64,000 bases of DNA, from NCBI GenBank assembly GCA_024398435.1, contig JAKSJD010000007.1, positions 1-64,000 of the forward strand, in the 5' to 3' direction. Both the position numbers and the translations under genes were made by a program. Shown here piece after piece: positions 85 to 62,721 of this stretch. The stretch's first letter is position 1. Each line of letters begins with the position of its first letter. Under the pieces are notes generated by a model, which saw only the letters and a list, made by a program, of their open reading frames with translations, searched no databases and was not told the DNA's origin. Source of the DNA: Bacteroidaceae bacterium. GTDB lineage: Bacteria; Bacteroidota; Bacteroidia; Bacteroidales; Bacteroidaceae.

Positions 85-273
85 GTTTTATACAAGTCGT
101 CATCTTTTGCTGCTTTATGGGTTCCCCCTATTAATATATAATAATGTGTATGGAGTTCAAGATCAGTTCTTGAGCTAATGTTTCCGTGTCAGATTTCAAG
201 TATTTGCCTCAACTTATAGGAATATAAGCATGTTTTCATTGATATATAAGCCGAAAAACGCAGAACAATTTTT

Positions 274-361
274 AAATCAGCGTCGCCGTTTAATGAAATT
301 ACGTCGCTGTTTAGTGAAATTACGTCGCCGTTTCATTAAATTTCGACGTTGATTTAAGAAT
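274..361. repeat. 88-bp intergenic element, family A copy 1
   Basis: A leader AAATCAG is followed by three 21-bp units (281-301, 302-322, 323-343) of a GC-rich head CGTCGCYG and an AT-rich tail like TTTAATTAAATT, then a partial unit ending GATTTAAGAAT. The ends are inverted (TTAAATCAGCG against CGTTGATTTAA). Other copies are at 23236-23324 and 59402-59490. The rest of the 85-503 gap, apart from the adjoining family F element, shows no gene or structure that I can recognise. Confidence 0.85.
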
Positions 362-364
362 ATA

Positions 365-409
365 CCTATAGAAAAGATAAAATATCCCCTTATTTCCAGG
401 AAAATATTC
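365..409. repeat. Family F element (CCTATAGAAAA), copy 1
   Basis: Two units of 22 and 23 bp. The first begins CCTATAGAAAAGATAAAATA and the second is degenerate, ending AAATATTC before ATGG. It follows family A copy 1 directly. The same order and nearly the same total length recur at 59402-59538, and related units occur at 32572-32637. Confidence 0.7.
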
Positions 410-5033: not shown

Positions 5034-6500
5034 ATGGCTAAAACAATTTGCTTATATTTCGAGATTCATCAAATCATACATTTGAAGCGTTATCGTTTCT
5101 TTGATATTGGTCGCGACCATTATTATTATGATGACTATGAAAACGAACGGAGTATCAACGATATTGCCGAGCATTCATACGTTCCTGCATTGCAGACACT
5201 CATTGCAATGGCTAAGGATTATGGGAAATACTTCAAGGTAGCCCTCTCACTTTCAGGTGTCGGACTCGAACAACTTGAAATGCATGCTCCTCAAGTTATC
5301 GACCTTTTGCAGGAACTTAACAAGACTGGATGCGTGGAATTCCTTTGCGAACCATACAGCCATGGTCTTGCAGCACTTGGAAACGAAGAAAGTTTCCGTG
5401 ATGAATGCTTGAGAATGAAGGCTAAAATCAAGGAACTCTTCGGACAATCTCCAAAAGTATTCCGCAACAGTTCGCTCATCTATTCTGATGAAATTGGTGC
5501 ACAAGTAGCATCAATGGGCTTCAAGGGAATGCTTACCGAAGGTGCTAAACACATTCTCGGATGGAAGTCGCCACACTTCATCTATAATTGCGCCCTCAAT
5601 CCAAACCTCAAGATTTTGTTGCGCGACTATAAACTATCAGACGACCTTAGCCTGAGATTCAACAATTCCGATTGGAGCGAATATCCTTTGATGGCTGACA
5701 AATACACCCAATGGATTGCAGACCTTCCAGAAGGAGAAAATGTAATTAATATCTTCATGGAACTTTGCGCTCTCGGAATGTTCCAACCTCTGAGCAGCCA
5801 TATTCTTGATTTCCTCTATGCTTTGCCTAAATGTGCAAAAGAACGTGGAATAACATTCTCTACTCCAAGCGAACTTTGCAGCAAGGGCAAGTCTGTTGGC
5901 AACATTGATATTCCTTACAATGTTAGTTGGGTAGACGAAGAAAGAGATACAAGTTGCTGGCTTGGAAACATGATGCAGAGAGAGGCATTCGATAAACTTT
6001 ACAGTGTAGCTGACAGAGTACGCATTTGCAATGATGTTAGAATCAAGCAAGATTGGGATTATCTGCAAGCATCAAACAATTTCCGCTTCATGACCACAAA
6101 ACACAATAGTGTTGGCATGAACAGAGGTATTTACGATGGTCCTTATGATGCTTTCACCAATTACATGAACATCCTTGGCGACTTCATCAACAGAGTAAAC
6201 ACACTCTACCCTGTAGACATGGATAATGAGGAACTCAACTCTTTGCTTACAACCATCAAGAATCAAGGCGAAGAAATCGAAGCTAAAGACCGCAAGATTG
6301 AGAAGTTGCAAAAGATTCTCGAAAAGTATCAACCATCTGTATCGAAGAAGGAAGAAAAGGCTCAAAAAACCAACAAGGCTAAAGAATCAAAGAAAGCTGA
6401 TGCAGAAAAGAAGGAAACTCCAAAAGTTGCAGTAAAGAAAGCTCCAGCTAAGACAAAGAAAGCAACAGAAAAGCCAAAAGCTCCAAAAGCAAAGAAATAA
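5034..6500 (+). CDS. GH57 family glycoside hydrolase (alpha-amylase-like), diverged
   Basis: 488 residues. The catalytic domain covers about 1-400: FEIHQIIHLKRYRFFDIG at the N-terminus, MLTEGAKHILGWKSPH near 165-180 (the Glu nucleophile region), and KLSDDLSLRFNNSDW near 200-215 (the Asp acid/base region). Motif 1 reads HQI instead of the usual HQP. The segment IFMELCALGMFQ (near 240) replaces what I recall as IFMDYETFGEHQ in close homologues. The last 80 residues are a coiled coil (EEIEAKDRKIEKLQKILEKY) and a Lys/Ala/Pro-rich tail. It is probably an alpha-glucan hydrolase or transferase of glycogen turnover, but the motif changes leave its activity uncertain. Confidence 0.87.
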   Translation: MAKTICLYFEIHQIIHLKRYRFFDIGRDHYYYDDYENERSINDIAEHSYVPALQTLIAMAKDYGKYFKVALSLSGVGLEQLEMHAPQVIDLLQELNKTGCVEFLCEPYSHGLAALGNEESFRDECLRMKAKIKELFGQSPKVFRNSSLIYSDEIGAQVASMGFKGMLTEGAKHILGWKSPHFIYNCALNPNLKILLRDYKLSDDLSLRFNNSDWSEYPLMADKYTQWIADLPEGENVINIFMELCALGMFQPLSSHILDFLYALPKCAKERGITFSTPSELCSKGKSVGNIDIPYNVSWVDEERDTSCWLGNMMQREAFDKLYSVADRVRICNDVRIKQDWDYLQASNNFRFMTTKHNSVGMNRGIYDGPYDAFTNYMNILGDFINRVNTLYPVDMDNEELNSLLTTIKNQGEEIEAKDRKIEKLQKILEKYQPSVSKKEEKAQKTNKAKESKKADAEKKETPKVAVKKAPAKTKKATEKPKAPKAKK

Positions 6501-8887: not shown

Positions 8888-9000
8888 CTGCTCTTTTCTT
8901 TATATATTAATATAATATGTGTACGACATCAGCCGATTACATTTCCCCTATTCTCAAAGCCCACAAAAAACCGACTATAATGTCTGTAAAAAAACATCGC

Positions 9001-9066
9001 GGTTCGGAAGGTCATTTCTCGCGAAACTCGACCCTATTTCTCGCGGTTCGTGAGGTCATTTCTCGC
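9001..9066. repeat. Three 22-bp units, family B (ATTTCTCGC)
   Basis: Exactly 22 bp each: 9001-9022, 9023-9044, 9045-9066. All end ATTTCTCGC; units 1 and 3 begin GGTTCG and share AGGTC. A partial fourth starts at 9067 (GGTCCG). The array lies between the tRNA-Gly 3' end and the antiporter start. No spacers separate the units. Confidence 0.8.
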
Positions 9067-9144
9067 GGTCCGCAGAAACGGTTCCATATTTCCTTTTTCA
9101 CGCCTTTCCCAAAGGGATATTTTCCCGTAATGTTGATTTGTGGG

Positions 9145-9217
9145 AGCGGTAGACGGGGTTCGAACCCGCGACCTTCGGCTTGGGAAGCCAACGCTCTGCC
9201 AACTGAGCTACTACCGC
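9145..9217 (-). tRNA. tRNA-Gly(CCC)
   Basis: Read on the minus strand: acceptor GCGGTAG/CTACCGC, D arm with AGCTCAGTTGGCAGAGC, anticodon stem TTGGC/GCCGA around TTCCCAA (anticodon CCC), and T loop GGTTCGAACCC. It is 73 nt, discriminator T, with no encoded CCA. TATCTTTG on the minus strand (9232-9239) 14 bases upstream is a suitable -7 box. Confidence 0.95.
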
Positions 9218-13343: not shown

Positions 13344-13349
13344 CACCGT

Positions 13350-13457
13350 GTTTTTCATGGTATTAGATTTATTTTAAGGTTAGTAAAAGGTTGCTTGTCG
13401 AGATGATAAGCGATTTTTTAAACGCTTTGCCACACAAAATGGCAAAGCGTTTTTTTG
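13350..13457 (+). ncRNA. Candidate small RNA of about 70-110 nt
   Basis: A perfect-consensus promoter is followed by an uninterrupted non-coding stretch and two intrinsic terminators: GCTTGTC/GATAAGC (13393-13411) with TTTTTT, and a perfect 12-bp stem AACGCTTTGCCA/TGGCAAAGCGTT (13421-13432, 13440-13451) with a T run. A separate promoter (13478-13507) then serves the symporter, so this segment is transcribed on its own. The 5' part (TTTCATGGTATTAGATTTA, then AAGGTTAGTAAAAGG) resembles sequences I recall from other Bacteroidales and may belong to a described Bacteroidales ncRNA motif. The rest of the 13259-13607 gap contains nothing else clear. Confidence 0.5.
13421..13457 (+). terminator. Strong intrinsic terminator after the small RNA
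   Basis: A perfect 12-bp stem with a 7-base loop is followed by seven T. It insulates the symporter gene from upstream transcription. Confidence 0.8.
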
Positions 13458-17289: not shown

Positions 17290-17355
17290 AATACGATAAT
17301 GGTCGTAAGGCAATACGATAATGATCGTAAGGCAATACGATAATGATCGTATGAT
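17290..17355. repeat. Three 22-bp units, family C (TACGATAATGATCGTA)
   Basis: Units at 17290-17311, 17312-17333 and 17334-17355 each hold TACGAT-N4-ATCGTA (one mismatch in the first) and are joined by AGGCAA. Each unit can form a small hairpin. The array lies between convergent genes (antiporter and the 17394-17903 gene). Confidence 0.85.
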
Positions 17356-22951: not shown

Positions 22952-23235
22952 AATTTTGATAAATTAAAAGGTTATTGAACTTGATTAAAAAAACTTAGTT
23001 TTATGGTGCAAATATACACATTATTATTCATACGCGCGCTACGTTTTTAATATAATATGTGTTTTTTGTCACATCTTTACTCAAAACATATCGGCATTGT
23101 CAATTAATTCACAAGAACAACTCCATCACGAATGCATCAACCAGTTGTTTCGAGCAAATAAAACTTTGGGAATTTCCCTTCTTCCAAAACCTGTTTTAGT
23201 AAGCAACATTTCCTCTTTCATTTAGAAACATTTTT

Positions 23236-23324
23236 AAATCAGCGACGCCGTTTCACTAAATTACGTACGCTGTTTATTTAGGTTTCGACGCCGTTTAATT
23301 AAATTGCGACGCTGTTTTAAGAAT
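23236..23324. repeat. 89-bp intergenic element, family A copy 2
   Basis: AAATCAG leader, then units of 21, 22 and 21 bp (from 23243, 23264, 23286) and the terminal CGACGCTGTTTTAAGAAT. The ends TTAAATCAGCGACG and CGACGCTGTTTTAA are near-perfect inverted repeats. It lies in the 545-bp gap between the divergent secreted-protein gene and engB. The only other signals I see there are a minus-strand TATATTTG (23009-23016) for the secreted protein and the engB promoter. Confidence 0.88.
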
Positions 23325-32235: not shown

Positions 32236-32474
32236 ACTTCGTTAAGATTTATTAGGACTTTTCTATAGAAAACTTCTATTCTCGGCCCTATTTTGCAGCA
32301 AAAACAGCAATAGATTTGCCTCGAAACGCATCTTCCGAGTTTACACATTATAATATATTATATAGCCATCCAACACCATTTGCCATCTTCAACTCTCCCA
32401 TTTCTCTTTTGTCATTTTCCAAGCAACATTTTATCTTTTTCATGGTCCAAAAACCCAAAACTCATGGCTCCAAA

Positions 32475-32560
32475 ACTATAATTATGTACATTGCGGTTAA
32501 TAATTATGTCAATATTATTAATAATTATGTACAATATTAATATTAATTATGTACAATATT
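32475..32560. repeat. Four 21-22-bp units, family D (AATTATGTACAATATT)
   Basis: Units start at 32475, 32497, 32518 and 32539 (22, 21, 21, 22 bp). Each has the core AATTATGT, mostly followed by ACAATATT. The array is in the 632-bp gap between the divergent MORN and DUF4494 genes and is followed directly by family F units. Apart from the MORN promoter and a -7 box TAACTTTG (32727-32734) before DUF4494, the gap shows only AT-rich DNA. Confidence 0.8.
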
Positions 32561-32571
32561 TTACTTTTACA

Positions 32572-32637
32572 CCTATAGAAAACATAAAACACTCCTATAG
32601 AAATGGGAAAACTTTGCTATAGAAATAGCATTTTGCA
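32572..32637. repeat. Family F element, three 22-bp units
   Basis: Units 32572-32593, 32594-32615 and 32616-32637 are exactly 22 bp and begin CCTATAGAAA, CCTATAGAAA and GCTATAGAAA. The first 18 bases match the first unit at 59494. A related single CTATAGAAAA is at about 32270. Confidence 0.85.
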
Positions 32638-47127: not shown

Positions 47128-47216
47128 GAGGACATTTGTCCTCTATATGGGAGGACAGTTGTCCTTTGACGGAAGGACGTTTGTCCTCTATAGGCGGGAC
47201 GCTCGTCCTTTGCTGA
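47128..47216. repeat. Four 21-23-bp units, family E (GGAC-N4-GTCC)
   Basis: Units 47128-47150, 47151-47172, 47173-47195 and 47196-47216 each begin RRGGAC or GGGAC and contain the inverted pair GGAC/GTCC spaced by 4 bases, then a variable CTNTA-like tail. A partial unit AAGGACAGC follows. This lies in the 461-bp gap between metH and the metallophosphatase gene. The rest of the gap has only the metH terminator and a -7 box. Confidence 0.8.
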
Positions 47217-59128: not shown

Positions 59129-59401
59129 TGTCTTTATTTTGTTTTGTGGCTACAAAGGTAACTAAAATTTGCGAAACAGAAAACTTTTTTGCAACTTTGT
59201 TGCAGTTAACAGTTTATAGTTTGTCGTTTAACGAGATTTTCTTTAGTTTTCCATCATTCATCTTGTAATCATTCATTCATTTTCATTTGAATCTCGAATC
59301 CATGCGTCAAAACTAAAAGTAAGTCGATTCTTTGGCTTGTAAGGCAGTTTCAAATTTCAATTTCTATTGCTCGAAAACCTAAAATTCCCTGCTTCAAACT
59401 T

Positions 59402-59490
59402 AAATCAGCGTCGCCGTTTAATTAAATTACGTCGCCGTTTAATTAGGTTACGTACGCTGTTTAATTAAATTACGTCGCTGTTTTAATAAT
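59402..59490. repeat. 89-bp intergenic element, family A copy 3
   Basis: AAATCAG leader, then units of 21, 21 and 22 bp (from 59409, 59430, 59451) and the end CGTCGCTGTTTTAATAAT. It runs directly into a family F element, as at 274-409. It lies in the 647-bp gap between divergent asnA and the HerA-like gene. Besides these repeats I see the two genes' promoters and nothing else that looks functional in that gap. Confidence 0.88.
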
Positions 59491-59493
59491 ACA

Positions 59494-59538
59494 CCTATAG
59501 AAAACATAAAATATTCCTATCGAATTGTGGAAATATTT
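59494..59538. repeat. Family F element, copy 3
   Basis: Units of 22 (59494-59515) and 23 bp (59516-59538) beginning CCTATAGAAAACATAAAA and CCTATCGAATTG, ending AAATATTT before ATGG. It matches the layout of 365-409. Confidence 0.75.
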
Positions 59539-62647: not shown

Positions 62648-62721
62648 GGTGTGTTAGTTCAGTAGGTTAGAATACCTGCCTGTCACGCAGGGGGTCACGA
62701 GTTCGAGTCTCGTACACACCG
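62648..62721 (+). tRNA. tRNA-Asp(GTC)
   Basis: 74 nt. Acceptor GGTGTGT / ACACACC, anticodon stem CCTGC / GCAGG around CTGTCAC (anticodon GTC), T loop GAGTTCGAGTCTC, discriminator G at 62721. No encoded CCA. In the 62440-62795 gap it is the only gene, flanked by the promoter and a terminator. Confidence 0.95.

Follow-up and report, generated by a model that had tools for sequence, protein, structure and literature searches.

The nearest described relative of the repeat arrays analyzed here is BrickBuilt, a MITE of Porphyromonas gingivalis that, in the accessible part of its description (PMC4596501), is a single family with a 23-nt unit (AGAYCATARTATCCTCTCRTRTG) and IS5-like ends. The likeness comprises the order Bacteroidales, tandem units without spacers, leader and tail flanks, a strictly intergenic location, multiple copies and imperfect units, whereas our arrays fall into many families, keep a 22-bp step and contain mosaics of half-sites. 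A BrickBuilt-like leader and tail around the array is present in one of them, the AT-rich family (12 copies), and the 23-nt unit itself had no match within 3 mismatches in the window, by which we mean the whole stretch of 64,000 nucleotides that was analyzed. REP and BIME sequences, in the available portions of PMC6006769 and PMC3733652, are likewise short intergenic palindromes in many copies, with atypical flanking structures in the Bacteroidetes subclass 2.6, but the step of our arrays is fixed at 22 bp. A REP/RAYT system was rejected, as 8 of the 10 array-bearing genomes of the genus are without a Y1 gene (PF01797: none in G000, G003, G006, G008, G011, G012, G014 and G015, incomplete assemblies of 59-90%); Y1 is present in G009 and, weakly, in G001. 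Prokaryotic satellites are also tandem repeats, species-specific and sometimes dispersed, but a dominant 22-bp class is not mentioned in the accessible text of the survey, which requires four or more repeats (PMC6749651).

A literature search, with subscription papers and preprints outside its coverage, returned no multi-family 22-bp class. Plasmid iterons and the end sites of Mu and Tn7 also consist of tandem or repeated sites about 22 bp apart, but the arrays described here are spread across many chromosomal spacers, and no Rep domain was found at the ten window neighbours scanned with Pfam. The window contained no match to an Rfam CRISPR repeat family at the gathering threshold.

Tandem Repeats Finder detected nine arrays with a period of at least 20 in the window, and every one had a period of 21 or 22 bp, which agrees with the original prediction of one shared period of 21-23 bp, common to unlike sequences and confined to the DNA between genes. 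Eight of the nine (at 281, 8997, 17290, 23234, 32478, 32572, 47128 and 59400) lie outside gene calls and the ninth, at 6434, falls within the gene 5034-6500. The intergenic location is supported, as is the single step in unlike sequences. The predicted range proved too loose, since the step in the host, the genome that carries the window, is sharply 22 bp (21 in one family). The claim of six unrelated families fails if it referred to the window arrays, since those at 281, 23234 and 59400 are copies of one family and positions 32475-32637, with the arrays at 32478 and 32572, are the core plus tail of one element (Table 1).

Table 1. Array features of the window, with positions counted from its first letter.
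Feature	Position	Strand	Remark
CGTCGCCGTTTAA family copy	272..388	+	21-bp array, then one CTATAGAAA tail unit
Cluster II half-site array	8988..9073	+	dyad axes 8999, 9021, 9043, 9065
Array of ATACGATnATnATCGTA-type units	17290..17351	+	four elements in 664-kb host sample
CGTCGCCGTTTAA family copy	23234..23324	+	
Outer leader, inverted relative of tail unit (GCAACATTTTATC...)	32421..32445	-	weak tail-profile match, E 1.1
Leader units CATGGTCCAAAAACCC.. / CATGGCTCCAAAA.. on 22-bp grid	32440..32471	+	common to 12-copy alignment
AT-rich core, four ATTATGTACAATATTA-type units	32472..32568	+	12 copies in 664-kb host sample
Tail of three units, each CTATAGAAA with 13 varied bases, at exact 22-bp steps	32572..32637	+	
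Array of GGACR-NN-YGTCC dyads	47128..47215	+	sole family of this kind in sample
CGTCGCCGTTTAA family copy with CTATAGAAA tail	59398..59524	+	source of family query

Pfam was run on 10 of the 12 genes that flank six of the window arrays, and 9 of the 10 gave a match, among them a CitMHS-type transporter, an SMC/RecF-type ATPase, a GTPase, a MORN-repeat protein, a methionine-synthase-like protein, a 5'-nucleotidase, AsnA and a HerA-like helicase, while one was without a match. No sign of a common function was seen among these ten neighbours. The window also contains an intergenic match to RF04319 (the Bacteroidetes paralogous sRNA family FopS) at 13348-13423 (+) and tRNA genes at 1-50 (truncated at the window edge), 9145-9217 (-) and 62648-62721 (+), the second of which lies 72 bp from the cluster II array 8997-9073. 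A tRNA association was rejected, as 2 of 69 elements lay within 500 bp of one of 7 tRNAs, compared to about 1.2 expected.

The host assembly (2,316 kb, an uncultured Prevotellaceae relative, 77.6% complete) was sampled by stretches, and the full sample, the window and 50 further stretches, covers 1,049 kb. It holds 130 intergenic tandem arrays with a period of at least 10, of which 66 are at 22 bp, 14 at 21, 6 at 44, 1 at 23 and none at 20, and the arrays in coding DNA include 2 at 22 bp and 5 at 21 bp. In 385 kb of host DNA held out from the earlier analysis, 21 of 39 arrays had the 22-bp period. The predicted excess was confirmed by autocorrelation of intergenic 6-mers in a 464-kb host sample, where lag 22 reached 114e-4, about 20 times the value of 20 dinucleotide shuffles (5.4e-4, sd 1.1), with 3.8e-4 in coding DNA and further intergenic peaks at lags 44 and 66. 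This was further supported by a count of arrays with period 20-24 in host non-coding DNA, 35 observed versus 2 in total from five shuffles. Arrays were carried by 60 of 258 intergenic regions of at least 100 bp in the host sample; two stretches of E. coli (100 kb) gave one array, of 21 bp.

The 62 arrays found in a 664-kb host sample were joined into 52 elements and these into 10 families (21, 17, 4, 3 and 2 elements, and five singles) by single-linkage clustering, by which the largest family mixes different cores. The multi-copy families hold 47 of the 52 elements. A query of 181 bases from position 59380 gave 32 host matches, and 2 of the 16 congeners added three more, each about 30 bases long. 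In the alignment of the CGTCGCCGTTTAA family an element of about 90 bp, with inverted ends CTTAAATCAGCGTCGC, is common to 12 of 16 copies, whose flanks are unrelated; the remaining four rows had been excised at wrong positions and do not align. In the 12 copies of the AT-rich family the core spans about 100 bp and has inverted ends, of which 16 of 20 bases pair in the window copy (32472-32491 with 32549-32568, counted by eye) and 20 of 20 in the copy L158:7713. Its leader and tail are inverted relatives of each other and keep, for the most part, to a single 22-bp grid that slips by 1 bp, and the outer leader matches the tail profile more strongly in other copies than in the window. This profile, built from nine tail copies, gave 15 matches at E <0.1, all at most 51 bp from an array; nine are from the copies used to build it, and others lie beside the CGTCGCC family or in leaders. 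The word CTATAGAAA occurs 7 times in the window versus 0.42 expected, and 64 times genome-wide versus 22 for the reversed word. An overlapping inverted CTATAGAAA pair (TTTCTATAGAAA) was found at window positions 32256-32275, which share the intergenic region of the element and lie 200 bp to its left, and five spaced inverted pairs of this word recur in the genome. The CGTCGCC and AT-rich families are short, non-coding and multi-copy with inverted ends, which are general features of a MITE. Composite transposons were tried and rejected, as among 69 elements just 4 neighbouring pairs lay within 4.5 kb, 2 of them enclosing genes. One array pattern had no exact match in viral contigs, and a scan of viral contigs with an array-neighbouring protein gave 10 distant relatives.

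The best resolved family, cluster II, at first seemed irregular, and its structure emerged once 15 of its elements had been set in one register. Each unit then consists of two half-sites of about 7 bases that face each other across a G|C or A|T centre, and one alphabet serves both the left and the right halves (TTTCTTG, AGTTTAG, AACATTA, CGAACCG and CGAAGCG types). At the half-site axis 55 of 70 left halves matched the reversed right half of another element, compared to 31 of 71 at the half-period axis and 0 to 18 at the other 20 axes. This register was set with words already seen, and the independent test is therefore a search for twelve fixed words in the 385 kb of previously unused host DNA. 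Here abutting inverted half-site pairs numbered 21 versus 0.1 in shuffles and 0 in coding DNA, half-sites in the same orientation 22 bp apart 39 versus 0.2 in shuffles, and half-sites diverging at 22 bp 25 versus 0.1. The next peaks were at 44 and 66 bp, every other distance had at most 3, and different half-sites stood exactly 0, 22, 44 or 66 bp from each other. Unlike types made up 18 of the 21 abutting pairs, and 3 were alike where about 6 were expected (computed by hand); self-dyads made up 2 of 70 units in the first set. The pairing of unlike half-sites is only a tendency. We found this alphabet in a single family, in one genome.

All 16 congeners were sampled, with 7 to 200 kb each, and intergenic 22-bp arrays were found in nine (G001, G003, G006, G008, G009, G011, G012, G014 and G015). 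None were found in the samples, several of them small, of the other seven (G002, G004, G005, G007, G010, G013 and G016), which include the near relatives G005 (60 kb) and G010 (86 kb). The autocorrelation peaks of G012 were at lags 84 and 22, and G010 had no lag-22 peak. In the small samples of G004 and G009 multiples of 8 dominate and lag 22 is also raised (48e-4 and 33.8e-4); their stretches L077-L086 show a strong intergenic periodicity at 8, 16, 24 and 32 bp, a different repeat class. Across 28 named loci from the order and beyond the signal recurs with other sequences, with lag 22 at 59.8e-4 versus 5.1e-4 and peaks also at 44, 66, 88 and 110. Arrays were sparse in 22 genomes from other families of the order: G031 had two at 23 bp, G036 one at 22, G018, G026 and G042 one each at 21 and G037 two at 21, and the remaining 16 had none of 21-23 bp. 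Two arrays were present in the record of Alloprevotella sp. Lung230 (L057), which is not marked as a metagenome assembly, and an assembly artefact is therefore unlikely. Related GC-rich arrays with GAGTGCG/GCGCACTC-type words were seen by eye in G015 (L177:10763-11025), G014 (L176) and G003 (L165), so some families may span species; L177 and L049 are one contig (G015:C41) that was present in two surveys. Taken together, the 22-bp register arrays are a real and sharp feature of the genus and some of its relatives.

How the arrays change between species was visible in G012 and G006, which align over about 45 kb with most blocks 78-87% identical. The G012 site has AAAGTATACTTT units, a linker and then TAAACCAACTGGTTTA units, and the orthologous site in G006 has a TAAACCAACTGGTTTA array, a nearly identical linker and then GAGTT..AACTC units. 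By eye, all axes including the linker fall on one 22-bp grid in both genomes. A scripted comparison of 15 neighbouring array pairs gave 3 at exact multiples of 11 (G012, G006 and L049), 3 that missed by 1 bp and 9 that missed by more, and many of these 9 have ill-defined axes. Dyad scores were >0.6 for both arrays in five pairs, among which 3 were exact, 1 was off by 1 bp and 1 by 3. The aligned stretch holds five arrays in G012 and four array sites in G006, with one array clearly shared. The matching spacer in G005 (same neighbours, by eye) has no array, and there is a 21-bp repeat at a distance of about 1.4 kb. Next to the array site, G012 (C1 13476-13583) has lost most of two genes that are kept in G006 (C6 8891-10196) and which we take to be nucleoside-kinase-like.

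Our preferred reading, which we hold to be just short of probable, is that the arrays are dispersed, non-coding MITE-like elements between genes that carry arrays of protein-binding half-sites. In the best resolved family the unit is a short inverted half-site pair, with dyad axes about every 11 bp in a 22-bp register. A dimeric DNA-binding protein, or several related ones, may bind each pair, and adjacent dimers may touch along one side of the helix, by which the spacing would be kept while the sites drift, are swapped or get replaced. Recombination between units would lengthen and shorten the arrays, and some machinery would spread the elements within a genome.

A serious but rather doubtful alternative is that the arrays are selfish palindromic minisatellites, MITE-like parasites without host function, in which transposase or replication handling of small hairpins sets the step and in-register recombination makes the mosaics. 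This would fit the multi-copy dispersal, the single array clearly common to G012 and G006, the precedent of BrickBuilt in the accessible part of PMC4596501, and the inverted ends that part of the arrays have at p 0.05 (14 of 57 in the host, 3 of 11 in G012, 0 of 3 in G006 and 3 of 16 in the named loci). Host spacers with arrays are also longer than those without (median 626 versus 203 when divergent, 415 versus 239 when co-directional and 334 versus 243 when convergent), unlike the single co-directional array-bearing spacer of G012, which is shorter; convergent spacers in the named loci showed no difference (338 versus 347). Against a selfish origin, no transposase partner was found in the host assembly, with its 77.6% completeness, where rve and Y1 domains were absent and the 2.7-kb locus of the one DDE_Tnp_1 gene is free of array motifs. 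Hairpin-templated repair is expected to favour self-dyads, which are rare in cluster II, and the exact spacing between different half-sites is left unexplained by this model alone.

The folding of the arrays bears on a further alternative, RNA hairpin elements in untranslated regions, where 22 bp would be two turns of A-form RNA. The 62 host arrays fold better than 25 random intergenic controls (mean z -2.85 versus -1.0; p 1.8e-11 for all groups). When the period was kept and the columns were permuted, folding was still significant in 25 of 94 intergenic arrays of 21-23 bp, with a mean z of -1.22 versus -0.33 in 73 other arrays (p 9e-5). Of 96 arrays, 52% had a whole-array dyad above the 95th percentile obtained from 70 shuffled sequences. 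Dyads at the unit level were weaker (p 0.05 in 4 of 30 arrays of the host, 8 of 13 arrays in the named loci and 1 of 4 in G012), and simple unit palindromes as a universal feature were not borne out by these counts. Eleven of 52 arrays keep their dyad while a block of constant length varies (at p 0.05; Fisher p 2.7e-4). Mismatches of the G-U and A-C kinds were balanced (37:35) across 33 co-directional spacers, which speaks against selection on RNA. The arrays also occur in every gene orientation and no window array had an Rfam match at the gathering threshold, and we consider RNA hairpins improbable.

Even less probable is a role as targets of a site-specific recombinase, in which half-sites would be exchanged at the two central bases. 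The mosaic half-sites around a 2-bp centre would fit such an exchange, and of the five tyrosine-recombinase loci in the host three lie near a 22-bp repeat (2.0-2.7 copies) and a fourth near a cluster II element (these four are L242-L245). This association was, however, noticed post hoc and combines two methods of detection, two of the three repeats have no more than 2.0 copies, a 22-bp repeat is present in 16% of randomly chosen 3-kb windows, and adjacent units leave no segment that could move. It is equally improbable that local sequence simply slips with a preferred step, with neither element nor function. Five of the 10 families are single elements in the 664-kb sample, but most elements belong to multi-copy families, some arrays keep the dyad while the spacer varies, and different half-sites share one register in held-out DNA.

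Returning to the MITE-like elements with binding half-sites, we infer from the register, the dyads and the half-sites that protein binding is the best-supported reason for the register. The sharp 22-bp step in the host and its relatives, the half-site spacing in held-out DNA, the matches at the half-site axis, the different arrays that by eye share a grid in G012 and G006, the whole-array dyads with balanced mismatches and the conserved dyads beside a block of fixed length all count for binding, and the share of elements in multi-copy families counts for the explanation as a whole. Other results count against binding, namely that no protein was found, that unit-level dyads are weak, that 9 of 15 neighbouring array pairs are off the 11-bp multiple by more than 1 bp, that the half-site alphabet is limited to one family of one genome and that arrays are absent from the samples of G005 and G010. 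In-register recombination between units could also make mosaics. Further, DNA has 10.5 bp per turn, and the drift of about 1 bp per 22-bp unit speaks against binding as well; at 2.1 turns per unit the original prediction that each core lies on one face of the helix is only approximate. While its observation was confirmed, its interpretation as a binding array is partly supported, through the half-site register in held-out DNA, the common grid of different arrays at an orthologous site and dyads without strand-biased mismatches.

A broader possibility, which we regard as unlikely on the present data, is a chromosomal half-site code, in which related DNA-binding proteins of Prevotella-like bacteria would sit on modular inverted half-sites about every 11 bp. 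They would form short nucleoprotein filaments in almost one in four intergenic regions of at least 100 bp, with a 22-bp register that the elements carry to new places and that outlives the sequence of the sites. The fixed step in unlike intergenic repeats, together with the interchangeable half-sites, suggests one trans-acting ruler in these gut-associated bacteria, and the arrays are a concrete bait for finding the ruler protein. It would explain part of the length and variability of intergenic DNA in these genomes and, if the arrays affect neighbouring genes, their turnover would lead to expression differences between closely related species.
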